Part shown: one piece after another, positions 1,683-23,088 of the stretch
How the letters are laid out: each line of letters starts with the position of its first letter
How positions within the stretch are numbered: the stretch's first letter is position 1
Virus record (IMG/VR): IMGVR_UViG_3300035670_001223
Span: 1-24,112 of that record
Length of the DNA stretch: 24,112 nucleotides
Reading direction: 5' to 3' (one strand)
Source of the DNA: a virus
Program-made: the position numbers and the translations under genes
The notes under the pieces: model-generated
Told to the model about the DNA's origin: nothing
Seen by the model: the letters and a program-made list of their open reading frames with translations, nothing else
Database searches by the model: none

Positions 1683-2717
1683 ATGCAAGCACAGATTCGC
1701 ACGCCTAAGGCCACGTACACCGTGGACTACCCGATGGCAATCGCAACAGCCCGCCGTCAGTTCCAGACCCTTTGGAGCGCCGAAGAGTTGGGCGTGGAGA
1801 AAGATGAGGGCGACGTACGCACGCGCCTTACCGAAGCAGAGCGCATGGGGTTGATTACCGTGCTCAAGCTGTTCACGCAGTACGAGCTAGAGATTGGCCA
1901 GGAGTTCTGGTCAGGCAAGTTCAGCCGGCTGTTTCCGCGGCCTGACATGCTGCGTGCTGCCAATGCCTGCGCCTTCGTAGAGCTCAACAGCCATGCCCCG
2001 TTCTACGACCTGATCAACAAGACCCTCAACCTGGCCAACGATCAGTTCTACATGGCTTGGCAGGAAGATCCGGACCTGGTCCAGCGCATGGACTTCGTGG
2101 AGAGCCACCTCAAAACCAAGGACCCCTACGAGTGTCTGGCTGCCTTCAGCTTCATGGAAGGTGTCGTGCTCTACTCCAGCTTCGCCTACCTGAAGTCCTT
2201 CAACATGGGCGGGTTCGACATGATCCCGCACATCGCCGCCGGTGTGGATGCCAGCTGCAAGGAGGAGAACAGCCACTTCGAGTTCAGCTCCTGGACCTAC
2301 CGCCAGCTCATGGTGGAAGAGGAGCAGCTGGGCCTGATAGGGGAGGAGAACAAGCAGGCCTACGCCAACATGTGCCACGAGATCGCTGAGAAGGTCTATG
2401 AGCACGAAAAGATCATCATCAAGAAGATCTTCGAGAACGGGGCCATCCGCACCATCTCCCAGGACGAGATCCTCCACTTCATCCGTAACCGGATCGACAT
2501 CGTATTGCAGGCACTCAACTGCGAGCCGATGTTCGGAGACGAGGCTGGTGTAGTGTCGGGGTGGTTCTACGATGCCCTCTCCACTTACAAGTTCGCGGAC
2601 TTCTTCGCCAACAACCAGATCCAGTACGTGCGTACCTGGAACAAGCATGCCCTGAAGTTCGACCCCACCCCGGATGCTCCTGCACCGACAGTCACCAAGT
2701 TCCTGGAGCGTACCTAA
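1683..2717 (+). CDS. nrdB: Ribonucleoside-diphosphate reductase, beta subunit (class I)
   Basis: This 344-residue protein is the radical-generating subunit of class I ribonucleotide reductase. The diiron ligands can be placed by pattern: E68 (LFTQYE), E100 and H104 in helix C (FVELNSHAPFY), E159 (FMEG), and E195 with H198 (KEENSH). Y108 sits four residues after H104, as the radical tyrosine does after the first histidine in E. coli NrdB. The odd point is that E100 and H104 are separated by three residues rather than the usual two. The start has GAGGA 6 bases upstream. It overlaps nrdA by one base (TAATG), which implies translational coupling. The beta-before-alpha order is the reverse of the common bacterial operon. 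It works with NrdA to make dNDPs. Confidence 0.95.
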   Translation: MQAQIRTPKATYTVDYPMAIATARRQFQTLWSAEELGVEKDEGDVRTRLTEAERMGLITVLKLFTQYELEIGQEFWSGKFSRLFPRPDMLRAANACAFVELNSHAPFYDLINKTLNLANDQFYMAWQEDPDLVQRMDFVESHLKTKDPYECLAAFSFMEGVVLYSSFAYLKSFNMGGFDMIPHIAAGVDASCKEENSHFEFSSWTYRQLMVEEEQLGLIGEENKQAYANMCHEIAEKVYEHEKIIIKKIFENGAIRTISQDEILHFIRNRIDIVLQALNCEPMFGDEAGVVSGWFYDALSTYKFADFFANNQIQYVRTWNKHALKFDPTPDAPAPTVTKFLERT

Positions 2718-4408
2718 TGGCCAAGACCTACGAACAGCTGAGTGAAGAGCGCAAAGCCGGGCAAGCCCGTGGCGACTTCCCCGACTGGTACACCACCCCG
2801 GCGTACCAGATGTTTCAAGCCAAGTACGCTGTACCAGGTGAGGCAGGCCTTCGAGGTCGCCATCGCACGATCGCCAAGACCCTGGCCAGGCACCTGCCTG
2901 AGCCGGAGAAGTGGGAAGAGCTCTTCTTTGAAGTCATGTGGAAAGGCTGGCTATCTCCCGCCTCTCCGGTACTGGCCAACACCGGCACCGATCGGGGCCT
3001 GATGGTCTCATGCTCCGGCCAGTTCATTGACGACAGCATTGACTCGTTCTACGCCAATTTGCACGAGTCGGCCATGCTGTCCAAGATGGGCTTTGGCTGC
3101 TCTGCCGACTTCAGCTCGGTAAGGCCCCGGGGCTCAGTCATCTCCGTGGGCGGTAAAGCCAGTGGCGTAGTCCCTGTCATCAAGGACTTTGCCACTATGG
3201 CGTCCAACGTCAGCCAGGGCGCCCAGCGACGGGGCTCCATCGCCTCCTACCTGAGCCTGGACCATGACGACTTCCCTGAGCTGATCGCCCTTCTGGAAGC
3301 AGAACCGGACGGACTGAACGTGGGTTGGGTCGTCACTGACGCCTTCATCGAGAAGCTCCAGGCAGGTGACAAGGAGGCCAACGAGCGTTTCACCCATGCG
3401 CTGCACACCAAGCTGGTCACTGGCCGTGGCTACTTCTTCAAGATCGATGAAGCCAACCGGCACCGGCCGCCGATGTACGTCGACCTCGATCTGGACATCA
3501 AGGCCACCAACCTGTGCACTGAAATCATGTTGCACAGCTCCAGGGACTACACCTATACCTGCGTGCTGAGCTCCATGAACCTCGCCAAGCGCAACGAGTG
3601 GAAGGACACCGATGCGATCTTCATCGCTACCGTGTTCCTCGACTGCGTGGTGTCTGAGTTCCTGGAGAAAGCCAAGGGCATTCCGGGTCTCGAGAAGGCC
3701 CTGCGCTTTACAGAGAAAGGTCGTGCCATCGGCCTGGGGGTGATGGGCTTCAGCACCCTGCTCCAGAAAGAGCGCATCGCATTCGACTCTTTCGAGGCCC
3801 ACCTGCTCAACCAGGAAATCTTCCGTCAGCTTCATGACGACAGCGAGCGAGCAACCCGGTGGATGGCCAAGGTACTAGGAGAGCCCGAGTGGTGCTTTGG
3901 CTACGGTGTACGCAACACTCACCGAACTGCCCTGGCCCCGACCAAGAGCACTGCCCTGCTGATGGGGGGCGTCTCCGAAAGCACTACCCCAGATCCCGGC
4001 ATGGTGTTCGAGATCGGCTCTGCGGCCGGTGGCATGAAGCGCATCAACGCCGAGTTCTACGAGCTGATGAAGGAGCGTGGCCAGTACACCCCCGAAACCA
4101 TCGCCAGCATCAACCAGAAGATCGGTTCGGTGCAGCACCTGGACTGGCTTACCGACCACGAAAAGATGGTGTTCCGTACTGCCTTTGAAGTGGATCAAGA
4201 GACCATTCTGCGCCTGGCCTCTACCCGCCAGAAGTACCTGTGCCAGGGCCAGTCCCTGAACTTCTTCGTCAGTGAAGATGGGGACGAGGAGCGCATCGCC
4301 AGACTGCACTCCAAGGCACTGCTGGATCCGAACATCCTCAGCCTGTACTACATCTACTCGCGCAGTGGTGTGGTGATCAACAACGAATGCGTGGCCTGTG
4401 CTGCGTAA
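2717..4408 (+). CDS. nrdA: Ribonucleoside-diphosphate reductase, alpha subunit (class I, no ATP cone)
   Basis: This is the catalytic subunit that reduces ribonucleoside diphosphates. It is 563 residues, against roughly 750 for E. coli NrdA. The N-terminus goes directly into the catalytic barrel (FPDWYTTPAYQ), so the ATP-cone activity site is absent. Active-site residues are present: C99 (VSCSGQ), the N265-L-C267-T-E269 triad, C282 (YTCVLSSMNL), the tyrosine pair in LSLYYIYSR (544-545), and the C-terminal redox pair C558/C561 (NECVACAA). The phosphate-loop sequence PTKSTALLMGGVSES is at 408-422. ATG2717 overlaps the nrdB stop and precedes all conserved sequence, so the longer upstream frame inside nrdB is discarded. 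With no ATP cone, dATP feedback through that site should be lost, which is my inference. Confidence 0.95.
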   Translation: MAKTYEQLSEERKAGQARGDFPDWYTTPAYQMFQAKYAVPGEAGLRGRHRTIAKTLARHLPEPEKWEELFFEVMWKGWLSPASPVLANTGTDRGLMVSCSGQFIDDSIDSFYANLHESAMLSKMGFGCSADFSSVRPRGSVISVGGKASGVVPVIKDFATMASNVSQGAQRRGSIASYLSLDHDDFPELIALLEAEPDGLNVGWVVTDAFIEKLQAGDKEANERFTHALHTKLVTGRGYFFKIDEANRHRPPMYVDLDLDIKATNLCTEIMLHSSRDYTYTCVLSSMNLAKRNEWKDTDAIFIATVFLDCVVSEFLEKAKGIPGLEKALRFTEKGRAIGLGVMGFSTLLQKERIAFDSFEAHLLNQEIFRQLHDDSERATRWMAKVLGEPEWCFGYGVRNTHRTALAPTKSTALLMGGVSESTTPDPGMVFEIGSAAGGMKRINAEFYELMKERGQYTPETIASINQKIGSVQHLDWLTDHEKMVFRTAFEVDQETILRLASTRQKYLCQGQSLNFFVSEDGDEERIARLHSKALLDPNILSLYYIYSRSGVVINNECVACAA

Positions 4409-8733: not shown

Positions 8734-9465
8734 ATGACCCAACAAGTCAACGACAATCTGGTGCTGCTGTGTGGCAAGTCTGCTGCAGGCAAAAGCGCCT
8801 CCCTGATGGGGCTCAAGAACCCCGAAGGCGTGATGTACCTCAACTGCGAGGCGGGTAAACGCCTCCCCTTCCGTAGTAAATTCAAAGAGTTCGTGGTCGT
8901 CGATCCCCTGCAGATCAACGAGGCCTTCGATGCGGCCGAGAACATGCCCGAGATCCACACCATCGTGGTGGACTCCCTGACCTACCTCATGGACATGTAC
9001 GAGTCCCTGTACGTGATCAACAGCACAAACTCGATGAAATCGTGGGGGGATTTTGCACAGTATTTCAAGACCATGATGCAAAGCTACGTGGCGCGCTCCT
9101 CTAAAAACGTGATCTTCATTGCCCACGTTAAAGACACCCTTAATGAGTCAGAAATGGTGATGGAGACCGCCGTACCCATCAAGGGCAGCATCAAGAACAA
9201 CGGCGTCGAATCCTACTTCAGCTGCATCATCGCGGCCAAGAAGGTCAAGCTGAAGGATCTCGAGAAATACAGCTCCGAGCTGCTTACCATCACTCCCGAT
9301 GAAGAGGCACTGCAATACAAATACGTCTTTCAAACTAAGCTTACGAAGGACACAGTCAACGAGCGCCTGCGTGGTCCCCTTGGTCTCTGGGACAACAACG
9401 AGACTTACATTGATAATAATATGCAGCTCGTTTTGGATCGACTTCACGAGTACTACAATGGCTGA
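8734..9465 (+). CDS. Sak4-like RecA-type ATPase (recombination)
   Basis: This 243-residue P-loop ATPase has Walker A LCGKSAAGKSAS (12-23) and Walker B HTIVVDSLTYL (75-85, D80), followed by a sensor-like KNVIFIAHV (124-132). Short RecA/Rad51-like proteins of this shape in phages are called Sak4 and promote single-strand annealing or strand exchange together with a phage SSB. The SSB gene lies one gene downstream, which agrees. GGAG is about 10 bases before the start. GC content falls visibly in the second half of the gene, from about position 9000, at the side next to the homing endonuclease. The gene's last 8 bases overlap the endonuclease start. It may correspond to gp44 of N4, from gene order. 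Confidence 0.8.
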   Translation: MTQQVNDNLVLLCGKSAAGKSASLMGLKNPEGVMYLNCEAGKRLPFRSKFKEFVVVDPLQINEAFDAAENMPEIHTIVVDSLTYLMDMYESLYVINSTNSMKSWGDFAQYFKTMMQSYVARSSKNVIFIAHVKDTLNESEMVMETAVPIKGSIKNNGVESYFSCIIAAKKVKLKDLEKYSSELLTITPDEEALQYKYVFQTKLTKDTVNERLRGPLGLWDNNETYIDNNMQLVLDRLHEYYNG

Positions 9466-10015
9466 GTTCACCCTGAGTTCCCACGCAAAAGACCTTACAG
9501 GCGTCCGCTTTGGAAGCCTGGTCGCCATTAAGCCCCTGGGTAAGAAGGGGAGAAATGTCCTGTGGGAGTTCTTGTGTGACTGCGGCTCTTCTTACACGTC
9601 AGAGGGGTGCTGGGTGACTGCGCAAAAACGCAAAGCAACCAACCCCTTGGCGCCTAGTTGTGGTTGCCTTAATCGGCGCACCACAAAGGAACTTCGCCTG
9701 ACCCATGGCTTCTCAAAGCACCCATTATTTTGGGTTTGGGTAGCCATGCGGGAAAGATGTTACAACCCAAATCACCCTGACTACTCCAAGTACGGAGCGA
9801 AAGGGGTGACTATCTGCAATAGCTGGAAAGACGATGCAGGCGCCTTCATCAATTGGGCGTTAACTAACGGGTGGCAAAAAGGACTGCATCTGGATAAAGA
9901 CATCCTTTCCTACGCCCAAGGAATCGTCCCCACATACAGCCCCACTACATGCCAGTTTATAACCCCCGCTGAGAATAGTAGGGCCACGTGGGGCTGGTTA
10001 GAAAAGAACACCTAA
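9458..10015 (+). CDS. HNH-type homing endonuclease, free-standing
   Basis: This 185-residue protein has the order of a known phage family. It starts with LTGVRFGSLVAIKPLGKKGR and an N-terminal zinc-binding region (CDCG, then SCGC). Next comes the HNH half with LTHGFSKHPLFWVW, MRERCYNPNHPDYSKYG and VTICNSWKDD, ending in LDKDI and YSPTTCQFITPAENSR. Such enzymes cut DNA at a site lacking their own gene and spread by repair. GC is about half, clearly lower than most of the window, which marks a late arrival. ATG9458 overlaps the preceding stop by 8 bases; the longer frame upstream lies inside the ATPase gene and is not conserved. No intron or intein is visible, so it is free-standing between two replication genes. 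Confidence 0.85.
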   Translation: MAEFTLSSHAKDLTGVRFGSLVAIKPLGKKGRNVLWEFLCDCGSSYTSEGCWVTAQKRKATNPLAPSCGCLNRRTTKELRLTHGFSKHPLFWVWVAMRERCYNPNHPDYSKYGAKGVTICNSWKDDAGAFINWALTNGWQKGLHLDKDILSYAQGIVPTYSPTTCQFITPAENSRATWGWLEKNT

Positions 10016-12258: not shown

Positions 12259-15200
12259 TCAGCGGAACGGACTGAGCATGGTCTTGAGCAGGATCGGCTC
12301 GTCCCAGGCATCCAGCATCTGCACCGGACCTTCCCGCAGCGGGTTGCGAAGCAGCTGCTGGGTAAACCAGGAGTCCTGGATCGTGGAGAGATCCCCCAGG
12401 GCCATCGACAGCATCTTCAAGGCGATCGCCCGGCCCGGGTGTTCCCGGTACAGGTGGTAGATCGCCCGCTGGATGCGCATGTAGTACTTGGTGAACATCA
12501 GCACACCCTTGTCGTTCAGGTACTGCATCTGTGGCGAGGTCGGGATGTCGTAGTTCACGAACATGTCGCTGGCTTGCTGGATGGCATCTACCTTGGCCAT
12601 CGGGTTGCGCTTCCGGGTGGTCAGGTACTGGAACAGGGTGTAGCGAGCCACGAAGTCAGAGAGCTGCGTGGACTTCGACAGCACCTTGTAGGCCGGGGTG
12701 TCGTGGGTCATGTACAGGGTCTTGGCCGCGTTCATCAGCGGTGCCGGCACCATGTCCAGGTACGGCCCAGCCTTCTCCTCCAGGTAGCTCTTGAAGGGGG
12801 AGAACTGATTCTCGTGCACATCGACGTCTTCCACGATGGTCGGCATCAAGCCAGCATCGATCAGCTCCTTGACCGGGTTGCGGGCAATCGCGTCCTGAAG
12901 TTCCAGGATGCGCTGCTCGATCTCGGTCTGGCGGCCCTGGATGTAGCCGGCATCGAGGAGCTGCTGCAGCTGGGTGAGCTCGTTACGATCGCGCTGATAG
13001 TCCAACGCGCCCTGAATACCTTCCTTGTGCAGTCGCGCCATGTCGGCCATGGGCACCCCGTGCCACCACAACACCGTCACGTTGCTGATCACGTTGAACC
13101 ACAGCGTGGTCAGGTTCTTGATTACTACGTTGTCCTTGACCGCGGTGACCAGGCCCTCGGCCGCCATCGAGCCCTGGCGCATGCGCAGGTAGGCCTTCTC
13201 TCCGAACACTGCCTGCAGGGTGTTCACGAAGATGGTTTCCGCGACGTTACGCTCCTCGGCATCCTTCTGGAACACGTTGGAGAAACGCATCTTGCGGTAG
13301 CCGAAGTTGATGTTCACCAGGTCGGTGCGCACCATGATCTCGGCCTTGCCCCAGATCTCAATCGCGGCTTGCTTGGTGTCTTCCGGCAACAGGTCCCAGT
13401 GCTCCTTGAGCTGCGGGTCTACGCTGTCTGGGGCCACCCGCACGTAGGAGTGCGGCATCTCCTGGTACTCGGCGTCGTACTGATCCTTGAGAGCCTGGAC
13501 GATTACCCGGTTGTGGTCCTTGGAGGTCTGCTTGTCCGCGGTCTGGCCGACCAACATGCCCAGCACGTCCTCGATGGCGTTGTCCCGCTCGAGCAGCGCG
13601 TCCTTCTGCTGCTCGCTCATCATGTAGCGGTAGTTGACGATCTCCCCACGCTCATTGACCACCGGCACGTAGAAGGGGCCACGCTTCGCTTCCTTGCGTG
13701 GATCGAAGCCAGCACCCAGAGACGAAAGCCGCTCGTAGGCCTTGGCGTTCCTGGCCCGGATCTCCGCAGTCATCTGGGCGTTCTTCTTGAACACCCCCGT
13801 GTAGCCGGCCTTGCTCAGACCCGCGTGCACCGTGGAACCCTGGGCGCGCTCACCGGTGAAGGACAGGGTGCCGGTCACCCGACGAGCCTGGCCACCGTCC
13901 TTGATGCGCATCAGGTACTGCTGCTCGGCCCGCGGGTCGGTACGGTCCTTGGGCAATGCATCCACCTTGGTGTAGCCAATCGCTTCGAGCTCGGCTGCCC
14001 GGGATTCGTTGACCACCTCCAGGGTGATGTTCGGGTTGTAGATTTCCGGGGTGTAGCCCTTCTGCATCAGGGTCGGGGAACCGTGAAACAGCGCTTCCAG
14101 GGCCTCCTGCTTCATGGCCTTGTGCAGGCCCAGGATGAACTCGATACCGTTGCCGTCCTGCCGCTGGTTCTCGACACGCAGCACCTCACGAACTTCAGCC
14201 AGCTGGTTTCCGTCACTGTACTGCAGGGCGTAGAGAGTGATCAGCGGATCGAGAATCGCCAGGGCCGCGTCTGCCTTAGTAACATCCACCTTGCCGGCAT
14301 GCTGCGTCCCACCCAGGTGCGCGATGTTGTGGGCGTTCAGCATCACGTTCTCGGCCGGTGCCACACCCCACGCCATCTGATAGCCCAGGGCCTTGGCGCT
14401 GGCCAGGTAGAAGTTCAGGTGCGGGCCGCCTAGCGCTGTCAGATCGGCCTCCAGGGTAGCCGCATAGCTGCTCGGATCCGCCAGGATCGCGTCGAGCTCT
14501 GCCACCGTGAAGCGGTCCAGCAAGCTGGCCATGTCGGTGCGCAGGGTGACCTGAGTCAAGGCCGCCTTGGCCGACTTGGTGAGGTACTCCCCGCTGTGCT
14601 TGAAGGCCGCCATGACGTTGGCCCGGGTGTTGTCGATCATGCTCAGACGCATGTTCTCCAGGCGCTTGGTCTCCCGCAGCAGCATCTGGGCTACCTTAGT
14701 GGCCTTGTCCCAGGCGCCCTGCACCTCGGTCACTGCCGAAGCCAAGATGCCTTCACGCACCTTGCCCATCTCGTGGTTGCCCTGCTTGATGGCCGCGGTC
14801 AGGTGATCCAGGCGGCCGGCTGCAGTGGTCTCGGCCAGGGCGGCTGCCGCACGCACGGCAGCGAACTTGTTGTTCTGCAGGAAGGGCAGCTGCGCGGCCT
14901 GCTCCACCTTCTCCGCGACCTTGAAGTTCAGTCCGTCGGTGAGCTCGCTGATCGCATCCAGAATGCCGGCACGGCCTCGGGCCAGGAGTTCCTGGCGACG
15001 GGTCTCGGCGTCTACCAGGTGCATCATCAGACCTTCGATCCGGCTACCGGCCACATCCCCACCGCGCACGCCCAGGGTGAAGCCATGAGCCGTATCGACA
15101 ACGTGATCCCAGACCATCTTCAGGGTGTCGCCCAGACGGCCTTGCGGATTCACCGGTGCCGGCCGATCGGTCTCGAACTGCAACTTCTCGCGTAGACCCG

Positions 15201-18200
15201 GGTGCACCATGGCCAGGGCAGCGAAGCGGCTCAGGTGGTTGGTCATTCCCTTGCGGTCGTTGGCCTGGATGCGGAACACGAAGTTGTGCTTGGCCGCCGC
15301 GGCTGCCCGGGATTCCGGTGCTGCCAGGGCCCAATCCCCCTCCAGGAAGTCCTCGGGGGTGATCCGCTGCCCAGCCTCCTTCCACACCTTGGCCAGTTCC
15401 TTGTAGGCCACCGGGTCCGCGTTCAGAGTCTCGCGCATCACCAGCTCAACCTGCTCGAGCACGAAGCTCTGCTTCTCGTCCAGCTGGAAGCCTTGAGACA
15501 GGGTCTCGGAACTGAACGGCATGAAGTTCTCGTTCACCGCCCGGTTGAAGACCTCCAGCGGCGTCAGCGGCCGGTTCTCGGCTACCTGAGCAAACCAGGC
15601 ACCGAAGGGGCCATGGACCTTCTGCACCACGTTGGAGAGCAGGTGATCGAGTACCGGGTCCTGGGTGCCCGGCAGGGCCTCCAGAATCTCCAGGCTGCTC
15701 ATCTCGGCCACACTGCTGGCTGCCTGTGCCAGGGTCAGCTCACGCTGCTGCTGGGAGGCTTCCCGGCTCTTCTGGGCTTGGGCCATGACGCCAGAAACAC
15801 TGGCCACCAGTACCGACAGTCCGTTGGTCTGCTGCTCGGCTTCGCTCTTCTGGCTGCCACGGAACAGGATCCCGCGGATGGTCTCCAGGAACTGGCGCAT
15901 CCCGGTGATTAGGCTGTTGCCCTTGGGTGCCGGTACGCTGATCTGGTTGAGCACCTCCTGCTGGAAGCGCAGGTTGGTCATGCCCCAGGCCACCAGCTCG
16001 TGCACGCTGCTCAGCGCATCCTCGAAGCCAGTGATCTGCTGCTCCGCGGCGTAGGCCCGGGCCTTCTTCAACAGGCTCTCGAGAGTCCCCACCAGGGCCT
16101 TCACCTCGGCGTTGGCCGGGTTCTCGATCTGCAAGGCCACGGCCGCATGGATCAGCTCGTGGATGATGGTTTCGGTGGTCAGGCCAGAGTCAGTGAACGA
16201 CGGGCTCTTGAGGAAGATTCGACCTTCTTTCATCCCCTCGGTGGTGTACCAGCCACGGGCATTAGAGACCGGGGCTGCCCCCACCTCGGAGGCCGGATGG
16301 TTCGGGGTGAGCATGGTCACGGTCACCTCGGCCGGTAGGCCACGGGCCACCTGAACCAGCACCTCCCGATAGAAGGCCGCGGTACGGCCCTTGGGCATCT
16401 GCTCAACCAGACGTAGGGCCTGCTTCGCCACCTGACGCGCGGAGACCTGGTCCCCCGCCTTGATGAAGAAGTCGACCCAGCGCGGATCGCTGGGAATGCG
16501 GGCCGGACCCACCTCGCCCCACACGCTCTGCAACCCAGCACGGTTGGCTTCTGCCTGCAGGGCCGCCAGGGCCTCAGTCGCCTCGATCTCCGGCACTGTG
16601 GCCAGGGCCTGTTCCAGGTTGAAGCCAGTCTGTTGATCCAGTGCTTCGGAGACCCGGGCCACGGCATCGTTGCCGTCCGCCTGGGCACGCTCGATCAGAT
16701 CCAGTACCAGGGCTTCAGGCTGAGTCAGTACCGATACAGTGGAGGGCACCGGGGCCTGGGCATTCGGATCGAACAGCTTCTGAACTTCCGGCTCCGGCAG
16801 GGCCAGTTGGGTATCGCGCTTGCGGCTGCTCGCCGCGGCGCTCTCCTGCTGGGCCTTCACATTGCGGAACCGGTCCTTGGCTACCTTGCTGGCTTCCAGG
16901 ACCTGGGCATCCGGGCTACGCAGGGCAGCCTGGGCGGCACGCTCGGCGTTGGCTTGCTGCTCCTGGGGCGACACCACATGGTTGCCCTCGAGCATCGGGT
17001 ACTGGTCCACCGCGGCCATCTCGCTCAGAGCAGTCAGGCGGGTCTTGTCCGCGTGCCGGGAAGCCCGAACCGCGTAGTCGAGCACCAGGCCGACGCCATC
17101 CTGGGGCTGGGCGTTGTACCAATCCCAGTCGAGCTCGCCCATGGTCTTGCGCATGTAGGCCTTGGCCGACTGATTGGAGAGCCGCTTGTAGCGGGCTGCC
17201 AGCTCAGACTTGGGATCGATGTCCTTGAACACCTCGAAGAAGCCAGTGGCAGTACGTTCCAGGGCCTGGGTGATCTCGTCAGACACCGAGTATTCACCCA
17301 TCACCTCGTAGGTGGCTTCGTTCAGGGCCTTGGCCACCGCCTTGGCATCCTGAGCAGCCACGATCTCAGCGTCATGGACGTTGAGTGCCTGGAGCTTGCT
17401 GTAGGCCTGCGAGGCGATGTAGCTGTCCGTGGAGTGGATCGCCAGGATGATAGCGGCCACACCCGGAGCCAGCGGAGTGCTCTCCATGCCGTAGTTGGTC
17501 TTGGTCTTCGGACTGCCGGCCGGGAAGTACCCTTCCGCGAACTTGGAGACGGTCATGTAGGCCTGGTCGTCGGAAACCTGCTGACCGTTCTTGGCCAGGT
17601 AGATCCCATTCTCCCGGGTGTCCCCGGAGAGCTTGGTCCAGGCCGAGTGGATCACCGGCTCCATGAACTTCAGCTCGTCACGGATCTCCTGCAGCTGCTG
17701 GGCACTCAGGTCCATGGCCGGCACGTAGCTGACGACCCCGTTGCGGGTGACCTTCTCGTAGGGCAACTGGCTGTTGGCCATCAGGTACTTGAGCTTCTGC
17801 TCACGCTTGTACTCGAAAGCCAAGTCATACAGCTCGAAGGCCGTATTGGCGGCGTTGTTTACTGCGTCACGTATTGCAATAAAGGTGTGGAACTCGCGCT
17901 TCAGCGTCTGCTCGATGACTTCCCCGAAGGAGCGCTTGAAGGCTGCCTTCACTGCGTTGGCTTGGGCCCTGGTCAGCTGCTTGGTCGCGGCTTCCCGATC
18001 CATGGCGACGTCGAGCTTTTGACCGTCCGGCAGGAAGCGGTTGATCAGGGCCAGACTGTCAGGCACCGACAGATCGCCCTCGTTGTTCAGGGCCGCCTCG
18101 ACCTTGTCGTAGAGAGCGTGGAGGAAGTCATCTGCCATGCCGTCCACCACGTTGTTGATCCCCGAGCCGAACATCAGCGCGGTGATAGGGGTCTTCACCA

Positions 18201-21200
18201 GGTTGCGGCCTTCGCTGGTCACACCACCGTCGGCAGAGGTCAGCGGGCCAGTCACGGCGTAGACCGCGTCCAACAGGTCCGCCATCTCGGGACTGGCTTG
18301 GGCAGCACGATGCGCCAGGCGCACCATGGAACGCGCCGTGGCCTTGTAGAGGTCCTGGTTGTTCGGATCCTGGGCCCAGTCCGCTACCTGGGTGAAGCCA
18401 GCGTCCTTGCCGAAGAAGCCGCCCGCGGCAATCCGGGACAGGAGACCCCCTGAGTCTTTGCCGGCACCCAGCATCAGCATGGCCAGCATCGGGCCGTTGG
18501 TCTTGCCGTCCACTTCCCGGGTCAGAGTGTGGGTGAAGGACTCCGTACCGGGGGTAGCCCGGGCGTTCTCGTAGTGGGCCAGGGCCAGCAGGGCATCCAG
18601 GCTGTGGAACTTCTCTCCGCCCTTCTTCACGGCCGCTTTGATCAGGGCCGCATCGTTGTCCTCGGCCACTTCCCCATTCAGCGCGCGCTGCAGGGCCTTC
18701 ACGCCATCGGCAATCACCATCTCTTGGGCCTTGGCCTGAGCCTCCTCAAGTGACTTACCGGTGCCCTGGGCATCGGTCTTCACGCCAAGACCTTCCCCCA
18801 CGGCAAGCCAGAAGTCCTGCATGTGCTCGGCATTGGTCAGACTGGCTTCGGTCTGCCAGCCTCCCATCCCGGTCAGCAGACGATGCAGCTTGTCGGCCTG
18901 GGGGTTGAACAGGTTCTCTTCCAGGCCTACGCGCTGAGGCTTCCACATGTTGCGGTTGAAGAAGAACGGCTGCTTGAGCTCGGGGTCCTCGGAACGCACC
19001 AGGGCGATGAACTCCTTGGCTTGGTCCAAGCTGCGCTGCACGGAGTCGTTCTTGCCCTTCACGCTCTCGCTGTTAGCGCTGTGCAGGGTACGGGTGCTGG
19101 TGTCGATCCAACCCCCGATCTCCAGGAACAGCTGCTCCGGCAGCGCCTCCAGCAGGGTCACCGCATCGCTGCGCAGGTAGTGGGCCTTCTTGTTCTCCTT
19201 GGCGAGGATCTCGCGCATCGCCATGGGCACGCCACGGTCAGTGTTCTTGATTGCCTTCTGGGCGTACTTGGGTGCCTGGAAGCTTGGGGCCTTGTTGCCT
19301 TGCTCCATGCCGAACAGGTTGGCGATCACCCCCTGGGTGCCCTTGGCGGTGTCTTTGATCTGGGCGAGCTGTGCCTGAGCATCCGGGGTCTGGGCCAGCG
19401 CGTAGAAGTAGTGCTGGATCTTGGCGTCCCCGGACTCCTCAGTGCCCATCAGTGACTTCAGCTCGGCATCGGAGATCGTGGTCTTGGTCACCAAACCTTC
19501 CACTTCCAGCAGCGCCAGAATGCGGTTGCCCAGTGCCGTCTCCAGCTTGGCGATGCTGCTCAGGCTGGCATCCGGCAGGGCGTAAGCGCCCAGTGCCTGG
19601 GCAGCCCGACGACCTAGCTGATTGACCAGCAGGCCCTCACGGGTGCCGGCACCGGCCAGACGACGCTGCAGGGCCAGGGGTACGCTGCCCATTTCGTTGC
19701 CAAACATCTGGGCGATGGTTTCCTCGGTGTTGGTCGGAGAGCGTGTGCCCTGCTCGACCAGCCAGCCGAAAGCCCCGGCACTCATGGCGGTCCACACGTT
19801 CTGCTCCACAGCACCGGTCTGCGGATCACGCAGGTACTGGAAGAAGTCCTCCAGGTAGTAAGTGTTGTCGGCACGCAGCGGGGGAAGTCCTGCCTCGAAG
19901 CCCGCCTGCCAACGGTTGGCATACTCGGTGAACAGATCCACCAGATCGGCCTGGGCCGAACTCATCTCGGAAGCCAGGAACCTCTGAGCGAACTCCTCCC
20001 CACGCAGCTGGGAGATCTCGGACAGGAAGTTCTCGACCTCGACCAGAGGCTGCTCAGAGGTGGCGTTGCGACGCTGCCGGCCCTGACGAATGCCCGCGGT
20101 GACGGCATTGACCACTGCCCGGTTGGCCTGGGTCACCGGCTCCACAGCATTGCTGATTGCCCGCTTCACCGCGGCTACCTTGCCCTGACCACGCTTCTTC
20201 TTGGTCTCCGCTACCTTGGCTTGCACGGTGTCGCCCAACAGATCCACTTCGGCCGGCTGCGGTTGCACACCCTGCACTGCTGCAGGACTGCTTTGGGTAG
20301 TGGCTTGCTGCGCTACTGCAGTACTGCCCTCAGCAGCCACAGGCCCTGTGTCCGGGGCGTAGGTCACTGAAGCCTCACCTTCGATCGGGGCAGGGCTTAC
20401 GACGGGTGTTTCGGGAGCAACAGTGAGGCTGGCTTCCTGCTCAACCGAACCAGAACGTACTGCAGCAACGTCTTCATCAACAGCTGGTGGAGTGGCTTCA
20501 ATACTGACCTCCTGCTGTACGGCTGTAGGGGCTTCCTGCTGTACTGTGTTACTTACTGCAATAGCTGTAGCCAGGCTCATCACGGCCTGCATTTCTGCCT
20601 GGGCCGCCTGCAGTGCTGAAGCCTCTGCCTCAATGGCAGTCAGGGTGCCCTTGTTGTTGGAGTTGCGGTGGATGATCATCGCACCGCTCTCATCGCGCTC
20701 TTTTTTACTTGGGATGGTCTCGGTAATGGCCCAGCTACCATCCTCCTGGGGGATCACCGCCAACCGGTTGTTGGTGCCCTCTACCTGACGGAAGGCCTGC
20801 CACACCATCTCGTTCTTGGACCCATGATCAGCTGCAAAGCTCTCAAGGAGTCCCATCAGGCGCCCGGCCGTCTCGGTATCCCCGGCCTGCACCGCCGCGG
20901 TGATGCCACTGCGGTACTGGACGATGCCCAGTGACCCAGTCTGTCGGGAACCCTGGAACACTTCCATGTTCACGCCATCAGTGCCCAACGCCACATTGGC
21001 CGCAGCCTGAGCCTCACTGAAGCGGACCAGGAATTCGCGCTGCTCCGGTGCCAGGACCTCAGTCTGCAACAGAGCACTGGCTTGCTCCAGGGTCACTGAC
21101 TCCGGGTTGGCCATGGCCAGGGTAATCACCTGCTGGACGGCATCAGGGCTGCCCTGGAGCGCCTGATCCACGCTGGCCTGTACATCGGTGCCGGCTGTGC

Positions 21201-23088
21201 TCTCGCCCACCAGACGGCTGTGCACACGCTTGATGGCCTCCAGGTCAGACTTGGCCATCTCGACGCTGCGCTCAGTCATCTCCCGATCGGAATCCGTGAC
21301 GCGCTTCACACGCTCGAGCTGCTGCTCCATAGCGGCAATCACCCGCTCCTGCAGCTGGGCTTCCTCGGTGGTCTTGTCCGCAAGCTCCTTGAAGCTGGCT
21401 TTCTCATCACGCAGGGTGCGCTGCAGATCGGTCCGGTACTCCCGAGTCTCCTGGTACATCGCTTGCTCGGCCTGAGCCACACTGGCCACAGCCGCTTCCA
21501 TGACCTGTCCGATCTGGCCCATGGTCTGGGTACGCTCTTCCGCAGAGAGCTCGGCGCTCTTCAGGCGCATGTCCAGGGCCAGGACCGCCGCCAGGGGGTT
21601 GAAGGACTCGCTCTGGGTATCGACCAGGGTACTGACGTCCCCGCTCTGTGCCGCGGCCTGGGCGAGCTCCATGGCCCGGGTAACGTGGGCACTGCGAACC
21701 CGCTGCGCTACACCCGCGTTGTGGGCCTTCTCCTCAGTCAGTCCGAAGACCTCGTGGACGATCCGGGCACCACCGGACATGGCACCACCCGCACCACCGC
21801 CCAGGACGGCACCCTGGTAGATCTCGAACCCGGAGGCCGGCTGGTAGGTGGCCTCACCCTCGGTGTAGGTCTGAATACCCTCGGCCAGGGTCTCGGCAGC
21901 CGTACCCGCGGCACCGTGGCGGGCCACGTTCATGCCGGACCGCACCAAGCCAGTGGCTACCGCCTCAGCGGGGCGCATGGTGGGGGTCATCAGCTTGATC
22001 AGGGTGGTATCCCCGATCGCCATGGCGGCCGTCCACGCGAAGGCGTTGGTGGCCATGTACTCGAATTCTTCCTGGGAGGGTAGGGCACCGTTGTGTGCCT
22101 TCTGGTAGTTCACCACCCCCTGGCGCAGCAGATCCATACCCTCGGAAGCCATCACAGTGGTATAGGCACCCCCCGATACCGCGGCCAGGGCCAGCTGAGG
22201 TGCCTGCTCTGCGACTACCTGTGCGGTAGCACCCGGGTTCATCACCAGGGCCGTACCGCCCTGCATGGCCAAGCCAGTCAGTGCTGAGACGGTGTCAATG
22301 ATCCCGAACTTCAGATCACCATCCTTCAGCCGCTGCATGGCGGTGCCCAGGTCCTTCAGGCCCTGGTCACTACGCCAGGCCAGCTCTTCGGAGAACCGGG
22401 TCATCTTGACCGGGTCCACGATACCTTCCGGCGCCTCACGGGACTCCTTGATGGCCCCGCCCAGACGACGGCTCAGCTCACCAGTAACTAGGCGTGCCTC
22501 ATTGCTGATCGGCGGGGTGTACCCCGCATAGGTCTCGGGAGTCTGGCCAGGCACCAAGCCATCCTGGACCATCTCGGTGAAGAGCGAGGGCCGGCGTGCT
22601 TTCGGCCGCTGATCCAGGATCTCCTGATCACCAGGCAGCTGCTCACCCGCTTGCTTGCGGTTGAACGCTTCACGCGCTTCGGTACTGACGTTGCCCTCCA
22701 GCAGCGCAGCCGTCGCATTGAACGGGGCCGCCAGGGTACTGCCTTCCATACTTGCAGCCCGGTCACGGATCGTGGCTGCCAGGTTGACGGGCTGGAACCA
22801 GAAGTCCTCTTCATGCAGTCCCAGCTTGGTGGTCCACGCATCCTGACGGGCAGCGAGCTCTTGGCGCTTGGCTTCGGCAGCAGCAGCGACACGCTCCTGA
22901 CGCTGCTGGGAGACGTACTCTTGAATGCCTGTGAGGCCCCCACGTTCAGTACCACTGGAGATCAGCTGGTCTCTCTCTGCTCGCATGCGGCTTTCGAAGG
23001 CATCTACCCCGCTGGTGGACTCAACCAGCTTTGCCCGCTCCTGCTGCATGCGGGCCTCGAAGTCCTTGAGTACGTTCTGCTCCGCCAT
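12259..23088 (-). CDS. Giant virion RNA polymerase, N4 gp50-like
   Basis: This 3609-residue protein is comparable to N4 vRNAP (about 3500, from memory). N4 vRNAP is packaged, injected with the DNA, and transcribes early genes from hairpin promoters. The N-terminal third has a duplicated FExRM motif (10-45), hydrophobic Gly/Ala stretches (about 265-310 and 410-440), a coiled coil (about 530-640) and a Pro/Gln/Ala linker (about 840-960). The central part holds the polymerase motifs: NMWKPQRV with R1386 (the T/DxxGR region), EVDGKTNG with D1527 (motif A), R1628-N-L-V-K1632 with F1640-G (motif B), H1885-S-T-D1888, and V-H1905-D1906 (motif C). The C-terminal part has HELIH at 2310-2314 with E2364, a zincin signature, and an end region recalling large polyvalent phage proteins (about 3470-3600). 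AGGGG is 7 bases before ATG23088. The family identity is inferred from motif order and spacing. Confidence 0.88.
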   Translation of the reverse strand: MAEQNVLKDFEARMQQERAKLVESTSGVDAFESRMRAERDQLISSGTERGGLTGIQEYVSQQRQERVAAAAEAKRQELAARQDAWTTKLGLHEEDFWFQPVNLAATIRDRAASMEGSTLAAPFNATAALLEGNVSTEAREAFNRKQAGEQLPGDQEILDQRPKARRPSLFTEMVQDGLVPGQTPETYAGYTPPISNEARLVTGELSRRLGGAIKESREAPEGIVDPVKMTRFSEELAWRSDQGLKDLGTAMQRLKDGDLKFGIIDTVSALTGLAMQGGTALVMNPGATAQVVAEQAPQLALAAVSGGAYTTVMASEGMDLLRQGVVNYQKAHNGALPSQEEFEYMATNAFAWTAAMAIGDTTLIKLMTPTMRPAEAVATGLVRSGMNVARHGAAGTAAETLAEGIQTYTEGEATYQPASGFEIYQGAVLGGGAGGAMSGGARIVHEVFGLTEEKAHNAGVAQRVRSAHVTRAMELAQAAAQSGDVSTLVDTQSESFNPLAAVLALDMRLKSAELSAEERTQTMGQIGQVMEAAVASVAQAEQAMYQETREYRTDLQRTLRDEKASFKELADKTTEEAQLQERVIAAMEQQLERVKRVTDSDREMTERSVEMAKSDLEAIKRVHSRLVGESTAGTDVQASVDQALQGSPDAVQQVITLAMANPESVTLEQASALLQTEVLAPEQREFLVRFSEAQAAANVALGTDGVNMEVFQGSRQTGSLGIVQYRSGITAAVQAGDTETAGRLMGLLESFAADHGSKNEMVWQAFRQVEGTNNRLAVIPQEDGSWAITETIPSKKERDESGAMIIHRNSNNKGTLTAIEAEASALQAAQAEMQAVMSLATAIAVSNTVQQEAPTAVQQEVSIEATPPAVDEDVAAVRSGSVEQEASLTVAPETPVVSPAPIEGEASVTYAPDTGPVAAEGSTAVAQQATTQSSPAAVQGVQPQPAEVDLLGDTVQAKVAETKKKRGQGKVAAVKRAISNAVEPVTQANRAVVNAVTAGIRQGRQRRNATSEQPLVEVENFLSEISQLRGEEFAQRFLASEMSSAQADLVDLFTEYANRWQAGFEAGLPPLRADNTYYLEDFFQYLRDPQTGAVEQNVWTAMSAGAFGWLVEQGTRSPTNTEETIAQMFGNEMGSVPLALQRRLAGAGTREGLLVNQLGRRAAQALGAYALPDASLSSIAKLETALGNRILALLEVEGLVTKTTISDAELKSLMGTEESGDAKIQHYFYALAQTPDAQAQLAQIKDTAKGTQGVIANLFGMEQGNKAPSFQAPKYAQKAIKNTDRGVPMAMREILAKENKKAHYLRSDAVTLLEALPEQLFLEIGGWIDTSTRTLHSANSESVKGKNDSVQRSLDQAKEFIALVRSEDPELKQPFFFNRNMWKPQRVGLEENLFNPQADKLHRLLTGMGGWQTEASLTNAEHMQDFWLAVGEGLGVKTDAQGTGKSLEEAQAKAQEMVIADGVKALQRALNGEVAEDNDAALIKAAVKKGGEKFHSLDALLALAHYENARATPGTESFTHTLTREVDGKTNGPMLAMLMLGAGKDSGGLLSRIAAGGFFGKDAGFTQVADWAQDPNNQDLYKATARSMVRLAHRAAQASPEMADLLDAVYAVTGPLTSADGGVTSEGRNLVKTPITALMFGSGINNVVDGMADDFLHALYDKVEAALNNEGDLSVPDSLALINRFLPDGQKLDVAMDREAATKQLTRAQANAVKAAFKRSFGEVIEQTLKREFHTFIAIRDAVNNAANTAFELYDLAFEYKREQKLKYLMANSQLPYEKVTRNGVVSYVPAMDLSAQQLQEIRDELKFMEPVIHSAWTKLSGDTRENGIYLAKNGQQVSDDQAYMTVSKFAEGYFPAGSPKTKTNYGMESTPLAPGVAAIILAIHSTDSYIASQAYSKLQALNVHDAEIVAAQDAKAVAKALNEATYEVMGEYSVSDEITQALERTATGFFEVFKDIDPKSELAARYKRLSNQSAKAYMRKTMGELDWDWYNAQPQDGVGLVLDYAVRASRHADKTRLTALSEMAAVDQYPMLEGNHVVSPQEQQANAERAAQAALRSPDAQVLEASKVAKDRFRNVKAQQESAAASSRKRDTQLALPEPEVQKLFDPNAQAPVPSTVSVLTQPEALVLDLIERAQADGNDAVARVSEALDQQTGFNLEQALATVPEIEATEALAALQAEANRAGLQSVWGEVGPARIPSDPRWVDFFIKAGDQVSARQVAKQALRLVEQMPKGRTAAFYREVLVQVARGLPAEVTVTMLTPNHPASEVGAAPVSNARGWYTTEGMKEGRIFLKSPSFTDSGLTTETIIHELIHAAVALQIENPANAEVKALVGTLESLLKKARAYAAEQQITGFEDALSSVHELVAWGMTNLRFQQEVLNQISVPAPKGNSLITGMRQFLETIRGILFRGSQKSEAEQQTNGLSVLVASVSGVMAQAQKSREASQQQRELTLAQAASSVAEMSSLEILEALPGTQDPVLDHLLSNVVQKVHGPFGAWFAQVAENRPLTPLEVFNRAVNENFMPFSSETLSQGFQLDEKQSFVLEQVELVMRETLNADPVAYKELAKVWKEAGQRITPEDFLEGDWALAAPESRAAAAAKHNFVFRIQANDRKGMTNHLSRFAALAMVHPGLREKLQFETDRPAPVNPQGRLGDTLKMVWDHVVDTAHGFTLGVRGGDVAGSRIEGLMMHLVDAETRRQELLARGRAGILDAISELTDGLNFKVAEKVEQAAQLPFLQNNKFAAVRAAAALAETTAAGRLDHLTAAIKQGNHEMGKVREGILASAVTEVQGAWDKATKVAQMLLRETKRLENMRLSMIDNTRANVMAAFKHSGEYLTKSAKAALTQVTLRTDMASLLDRFTVAELDAILADPSSYAATLEADLTALGGPHLNFYLASAKALGYQMAWGVAPAENVMLNAHNIAHLGGTQHAGKVDVTKADAALAILDPLITLYALQYSDGNQLAEVREVLRVENQRQDGNGIEFILGLHKAMKQEALEALFHGSPTLMQKGYTPEIYNPNITLEVVNESRAAELEAIGYTKVDALPKDRTDPRAEQQYLMRIKDGGQARRVTGTLSFTGERAQGSTVHAGLSKAGYTGVFKKNAQMTAEIRARNAKAYERLSSLGAGFDPRKEAKRGPFYVPVVNERGEIVNYRYMMSEQQKDALLERDNAIEDVLGMLVGQTADKQTSKDHNRVIVQALKDQYDAEYQEMPHSYVRVAPDSVDPQLKEHWDLLPEDTKQAAIEIWGKAEIMVRTDLVNINFGYRKMRFSNVFQKDAEERNVAETIFVNTLQAVFGEKAYLRMRQGSMAAEGLVTAVKDNVVIKNLTTLWFNVISNVTVLWWHGVPMADMARLHKEGIQGALDYQRDRNELTQLQQLLDAGYIQGRQTEIEQRILELQDAIARNPVKELIDAGLMPTIVEDVDVHENQFSPFKSYLEEKAGPYLDMVPAPLMNAAKTLYMTHDTPAYKVLSKSTQLSDFVARYTLFQYLTTRKRNPMAKVDAIQQASDMFVNYDIPTSPQMQYLNDKGVLMFTKYYMRIQRAIYHLYREHPGRAIALKMLSMALGDLSTIQDSWFTQQLLRNPLREGPVQMLDAWDEPILLKTMLSPFR
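15997..16161 (-). other. Zinc metalloprotease signature inside the giant protein
   Basis: H2310-E-L-I-H2314 is preceded by TTETII and followed by AAVALQ, so it is a helix of the gluzincin or minigluzincin kind. E2364, in VHELVAWGMTN, lies 50 residues later and is a fitting third zinc ligand, because similar phage-encoded proteases have H-E-L-x-H-A followed by E-F/L-V-A. A mobile-looking beta segment (EVTVTMLTPN, GRIFLKS) precedes it. The substrate is unknown: self-processing, the host envelope or another virion protein are possible. Confidence 0.65.
17371..18933 (-). other. RNA polymerase catalytic core of the giant protein
   Basis: This spans R1386 to D1906. Distances between key residues are 141 (R to motif A Asp), 105 (motif A Asp to motif B Lys) and 274 (motif B Lys to motif C Asp). 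The N4 mini-vRNAP values, as I recall its residues R424, D559, K670 and D951, are 135, 111 and 281. T7 RNA polymerase (R425, D537, K631, D812) has 112, 94 and 181, so N4 is the better match. The residue at the position of T7 Tyr639 / N4 Tyr678 is Phe1640 (codon TTC at 18171-18169). Confidence 0.85.
17872..17881. promoter_or_regulatory. TAYTGCARTA palindrome inside the polymerase gene
   Basis: TATTGCAATA is a perfect match to the recurring palindrome. It lies in coding sequence (Ile-Ala-Ile, ATT GCA ATA) and uses the ATA codon, which is rare in a genome of this GC content. That suggests the DNA motif itself is kept. Confidence 0.4.
20200..20570 (-). other. Disordered interdomain linker of the giant protein, with clustered palindromes
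   Basis: Residues about 840-963 are rich in Ala, Val, Pro, Gln, Glu, Ser and Thr (TAVQQEVS, VAPETPVVSP, AVQGVQPQPAEV) and end before a basic patch (KKKRGQGKVAAVKRA). It separates the N-terminal third from the polymerase. Two perfect TAYTGCARTA palindromes (20314-20323 and 20554-20563) and one near-copy (20458-20467) lie here. Part of the repetition follows from repeated Val-Gln-Gln-Glu codons. Confidence 0.6.
22954..23061 (-). repeat. Duplicated FExRM motif at the N-terminus of the giant protein
   Basis: Residues 10-24 (FEARMQQERAKLVES) and 31-45 (FESRMRAERDQLISS) match at 8 of 15 positions, with further similar residues. It is a short tandem protein repeat directly at the N-terminus. It could be a packaging or anchoring signal; no function is known to me. 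Confidence 0.5.

Follow-up and report, generated by a model that had tools for sequence, protein, structure and literature searches.

The window analysed here, a stretch of viral DNA of 24,112 nucleotides (IMG/VR record IMGVR_UViG_3300035670_001223), carried on its minus strand an N4 gp50-like giant virion RNA polymerase (vRNAP), encoded by a single uninterrupted frame of 3609 codons (12259–23088, -) that matched the virion RNA polymerase family PHROG 2206 (E 1.7e-160) and contained the Pfam domain PF21867 (vRNAP_dom_2). Reference vRNAPs of the Schitoviridae are giant single-chain proteins of 2,842–3,820 amino acids, and ExDGxxxG is the conserved motif that defines the family (PMC10654107); the window protein was a single chain of 3609 amino acids, and read E-V-D-G-K-T-N-G around D1527. 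The catalytic set aligned in full, with the TxxGR-motif arginine R1386 (18931–18933, -; N4 R424), the motif A aspartate D1527 (18508–18510, -; N4 D559), R1628 and K1632 of motif B, and the motif C aspartate D1906 (17371–17373, -; N4 D951). The window protein is a Schitoviridae vRNAP with its catalytic residues intact apart from the motif B aromatic. The phage's early region lies beyond the window. No DNA-level relatives of the window were found in phages, and a single-sequence protein scan of IMG/VR with the window returned no relatives.

Two further traits of the protein were recorded. It contained no cysteine over its entire length, as reported for LUZ7 and LIT1, and the sampled relatives were Cys-free over the stretches read. 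A zincin-like HExxH motif (HELIH, residues 2310–2314; 16147–16161, -) lay in the C-terminal part and was kept in all vRNAPs checked, including that of N4, where it is known as a motif of the C1 domain.

The first-pass annotation had credited the phage with its own ribonucleotide reductase (RNR) and ThyX, and Pfam searches found all three genes in the window on the plus strand: thyX (710–1585; PF02511, E 4e-34), the NrdB-like small chain of RNR (1683–2717; PF00268, E 8e-36) and the NrdA-like large chain (2561–4408; PF02867, E 2e-72). The longest NrdA frame, which opens with GTG, overlapped the NrdB frame, and the true NrdA start probably lies downstream of 2561. Among the replication genes, a frame for an HNH endonuclease (phrog_374; 9299–10015, +) followed and overlapped that of a Sak4-like recombinase (8734–9465); the HNH frame is possibly a homing insertion.

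Motif B of the vRNAP read R1628-NLV-K1632-TPITALM-F1640-GS (18163–18207, -), with F1640 encoded at 18169–18171 (codon 1640 of the frame, TTC in the coding, minus strand and GAA in its plus-strand complement). The aromatic residue of the motif, Rx3Kx7YG, is typically, not universally, Tyr in the vRNAP family. Its replacement by Phe does not exclude the window protein from the family, and the Tyr cannot be family-defining because the known members LIT1 and LUZ7 vary there too. The claim that Phe occupies the place of T7 Tyr639 and N4 Tyr678 was borne out by alignment. Phmmer paired the region with the N4 vRNAP segment RGIAKNPLTITIYGSG (E 8e-20, against the N4 vRNAP chains in the PDB), MAFFT alignments with 20 other phages put F1640 in the column of N4 Y678 and gave matches in the window vRNAP to N4 R424, D559, G560, G564, R666, K670 and D951, and a profile alignment with 78 T7-like polymerases put T7 Y639 in the same column. 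The eight-residue step from the lysine to F1640 had been counted correctly and is the conserved spacing, and no other Tyr can fill the equivalent position.

The fold of the polymerase core was modelled with AlphaFold2. A first model built on 5 sequences was poor (pLDDT 61.5), and a model of residues 1221–1970 built on 52 sequences reached a pLDDT of 87.8 and a pTM of 0.85. The latter model matched N4 mini-vRNAP-promoter complexes with Z-scores of up to 30.6 (3C3L) and T7 RNA polymerase elongation complexes with Z about 21. F1640, residue 420 of the model, was predicted to lie directly past a helix (405–419), at the place expected from the O-helix.

The distribution of the residue was followed in a vRNAP set assembled from named phages, IMG/VR and one scan of bacterial genomes, from which near-copies were dropped at 95% identity, leaving 108 sequences. 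The alignment of motif B across Schitoviridae vRNAPs that had been proposed as a check gave Tyr in 91 and Phe in 17 of these, with no third residue. The sampling reached each of the eight named subfamilies of Schitoviridae, of which Migulavirinae alone had Phe; the holders were LIT1 and LUZ7 (Migulavirinae), the Littlefixvirus 98PfluR60PP, a contig from a bacterial assembly (L155) and metagenomic contigs including L042 and L126. When a maximum-likelihood tree was computed with the motif B columns removed, the Phe sequences formed one clade with one change (support 97 SH-aLRT), and in a smaller, more careful tree that omitted both pocket regions the clade had support of 99/97, with one change in 98% of bootstrap trees. 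L126 and L155 branched together with the window, close to the clade's base and outside the group of LIT1, LUZ7 and 98PfluR60PP. No independent Phe was seen in other vRNAP lineages among those reachable by pattern scans. Since Tyr occupied the Y639 site in all 76 readable T7-like polymerases, Tyr was taken as ancestral.

Within the clade, Phe was present in each of the 29 sequences read at this column, isolates included, and the column was among the only 81 of 714 that were invariant. The Phe codons are a single base change from Tyr, yet Phe did not vary; both TTT and TTC occurred, which indicated that the residue, not the codon, has been maintained. By these comparisons, F1640 is a genuine inherited trait of one phage lineage.

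Two groups of records in this set call for separate comment. The L155 contig (NZ_BJUL01000016.1, 75.9 kb), from an assembly of Vreelandella (Halomonas) venusta, bears a Phe vRNAP together with RNR and ThyX and resembles a whole Schitoviridae phage, whether as a carrier state, a plasmid-like prophage or contamination. The Photobacterium phages TEMp-D1 and TEMp-D2 (PP852687 and PP852688, L015) had a motif B identical to that of Pseudomonas phage LIT1, with near-identical match scores, which raises the possibility that the Photobacterium damselae host label, or the sample, is mistaken.

For RNA polymerases of the T7 family, the Tyr at the Tyr639 position is a textbook example of a residue that determines sugar choice, and a mutant made from it is in wide laboratory use. 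The literature ties this Tyr, at T7 Y639 and N4 Y678, to ribose discrimination, and in agreement with what had been stated for this locus, the laboratory change Y639F is cited as relaxing that discrimination in T7 (PMC13286181, PMC4551944). In a paper from 2010 that dealt with LUZ7, LIT1 and PEV2, a supplementary legend names a natural “Y678F substitution”, and the direction of selectivity suggested for it there is the opposite of that predicted from the T7 mutant (PMC3715699). We read the substitution named in this legend as the same vRNAP change as that of the F1640 clade because its number follows N4 mini-vRNAP numbering and the LIT1 and LUZ7 vRNAPs have Phe. The same paper gives host lysis by the three phages in about 25 min (PMC3715699), which makes a Phe vRNAP compatible with a normal lytic cycle. 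Our literature search found no later test of “Y678F” and no assay of a Phe vRNAP with dNTPs; Phe at Y678 has been in print since 2010. Phe is neither unique to the window nor new, and what is added here is its clade-wide single origin, its spread beyond Pseudomonas phages and the contrast of Phe plus His with the Tyr plus Gly of N4.

The His of this contrast is H1885 (17434–17436, -), which C-terminal profile alignment and column counts equated with T7 His784 and N4 Gly926. T7 H784 (FVHSQDG) was aligned with H1885 of the window (AIHSTDS) at a low local-hit probability (7–26%), but four starting sequences all gave this register, and an HSxD motif is shared; the assignment stands on the C-terminal profiles, as the global alignment over the full length lost its register in the C-terminal half. 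In T7, both Tyr639 and His784 flank the ribose, His784 being the second residue in contact with its 2'-OH. The human pair, Tyr999 and His1125, has been modelled around the ribose 2' group (PMC4750701), and T7 H784 has been described as probing the minor groove and not chiefly the 2'-OH (PMC4551944). His filled this column in 17 of 17 Phe vRNAPs, so that Phe was never paired with another residue in them; the 91 Tyr vRNAPs had Gly (70), His (8), Gln (7), Ser (5) or Thr (1), and the T7-like polymerases combined Tyr with His in 76 of 76 readable cases. The lineages with Tyr and His sat in the Phe clade's half of the tree, and Phe may have arisen where His was already present. Other changes of the Phe clade near the pocket were Ile to Ala at the equivalent of N4 675, mostly Met at 677, Gly to Ser at 930 and Phe to His at 950. 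The predicted ribose pocket of the window vRNAP is Phe plus His and thus agrees at both residues with the laboratory enzyme T7 Y639F.

A third position bears on the class of the enzyme. G1532 (18493–18495, -), the equivalent of T7 Gly542, was Gly in 108 of 108 vRNAPs; it corresponds to the position where Pol I-type DNA polymerases bear the steric-gate Glu. As the Gly that replaces the steric gate is retained, a Phe vRNAP remains an RNA polymerase by design and not one turned DNA polymerase.

The residue identities, the Phe clade and the single change are what the comparisons showed, and the explanation that, as a whole, we consider probable is that of one old Tyr-to-Phe change in an otherwise ordinary vRNAP in which H1885 shares ribose selection. 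On this view, one Schitoviridae clade, with Migulavirinae, Littlefixvirus and the window phage among its members, would have acquired the change a single time, in its ancestor, and retained it since. By homology to N4, the Phe vRNAP would be an ordinary early-transcribing virion polymerase, and its ribose pocket would hold the T7-type His and lack the hydroxyl of Tyr, whereas N4 shows the reverse, with Tyr present and Gly where the His would be. To keep dNTPs out, the enzyme would probably rely on H1885, on the unaltered remainder of the RNA-polymerase active site and on rNTPs outnumbering dNTPs in the cell. Its intrinsic selectivity may fall short of that of N4, in the manner of the laboratory mutant T7 Y639F, with no dedicated role in making DNA. 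How F1640 and H1885 divide this work, and any change in selectivity, are inferences. The pairing of Phe with His would be consistent with a scheme where one of the two residues suffices to recognise the 2'-OH, and as a single evolutionary event it provides no statistical proof of compensation. Such a scheme does not guarantee normal selectivity either, since ribose discrimination is lost in T7 Y639F even though His784 is present, and a His by itself may be insufficient to recover it.

This same mutant weighs against a change that has been fully compensated, that is, a Phe vRNAP that discriminates as N4 does with the 2'-OH recognised by H1885 or other clade-specific pocket residues. The presence of His in every Phe vRNAP, with Phe never beside Gly, Gln or Ser, speaks for such a neutral change, as do the clade-specific substitutions at the 675, 677, 930 and 950 equivalents; however, several Tyr sister lineages of the Phe clade also have His at the H1885 column, and they share the motif C “HDA” and other features, which are not specific to Phe. 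We regard full compensation as rather unlikely.

Another reading is that the Phe vRNAP accepts dNTPs to a biologically useful degree, yielding chimeric transcripts or DNA-containing primers from nucleotides supplied by phage RNR and ThyX. The relaxed discrimination of laboratory T7 Y639F (PMC4551944, PMC13286181), a pocket equal to that mutant's at both positions and the RNR and ThyX genes in the window all point in this direction. The first-pass annotation had linked Phe to those genes, and the link did not hold when 26 phages were compared (10 with Phe, 16 with Tyr; some records are fragments, and absence is soft for L042). Of the 10 Phe phages, 3 had the RNR large subunit and 2 had Thy1/ThyX; of the 16 Tyr phages, 5 and 9 had them, respectively. 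Fisher tests gave p = 1.0 for RNR, no association, and p = 0.11 for Thy1/ThyX, where the difference ran against the proposed link. Neither gene was present in LIT1, LUZ7 or 98PfluR60PP, nor in four metagenomic Phe phages that were nearly complete, and many Tyr phages carried RNR, ThyX or both, with RNR beside Tyr in EE36phi1, DFL12phi1, At2, 1.025.O and AD45-P3. We rejected an association of Phe with RNR or ThyX on this 26-phage comparison, and the physiological connection is unsupported. The invariant RNA-polymerase Gly at the steric-gate position also argues against a polymerase of mixed use, as does N4 biology, where the vRNAP arrives with the infecting genome, ahead of phage-coded RNR and ThyX (PMC4496689). 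An enzyme supplied with dNTPs in this manner is, in our estimation, highly improbable, and incorporation of deoxynucleotides by Phe-clade vRNAPs at a biologically meaningful rate in early infection, for example into chimeric early transcripts or primers, appears about equally improbable. A Phe enzyme assayed in vitro could plausibly tell rNTPs from dNTPs less strictly; that incorporating deoxynucleotides serves a biological role is unlikely.

An artefact of sequencing or assembly, a frameshift or a misalignment might be suspected in a residue read from one metagenomic contig fragment of 24,112 bases, but the chance is negligible and we discarded the idea as already refuted by the relatives, for many independent isolates and contigs carry the same residue with both Phe codons, which ruled out the suggested error in TTC, and the 3609 codons lie in one open frame with the catalytic residues flanking F1640 intact.

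The closest known systems are the vRNAPs of the Pseudomonas phages LIT1, LUZ7 and PEV2 (Migulavirinae) and of 98PfluR60PP (Littlefixvirus), which resemble the window's in protein, Phe, His and the motif B pattern K-x-P-x-T-A-x-M-F-G-S. Their cores are only 36% identical to that of the window, and the window phage has RNR and ThyX, whereas LIT1, LUZ7 and 98PfluR60PP lack both. The N4 mini-vRNAP (PDB 2PO4, 3C3L, 3C2P, 3C46) shares the fold and the catalytic residues except the motif B aromatic, at about 18% identity, with Tyr678 and Gly926 in place of Phe1640 and His1885. T7 Y639F has Phe and His at the 639 and 784 equivalents in a T7-family fold; compared by residues and predicted fold, the window enzyme differs in being a natural, N4-type virion polymerase. 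Human mitochondrial RNA polymerase has been modelled with the equivalent two positions on either side of the ribose 2' group (PMC4750701), but it retains both Tyr999 and His1125, unlike the Phe and His of the window.

Phe was fixed long ago in this clade, together with a T7-type His that is absent from N4, and the arrangement is directly testable by a few point mutants. The Tyr and Gly of N4, the Tyr and His of T7 and the Phe and His of the Phe clade offer a ready comparison of how two residues share ribose selection, and the Phe clade may provide natural polymerases that accept 2'-modified nucleotides.
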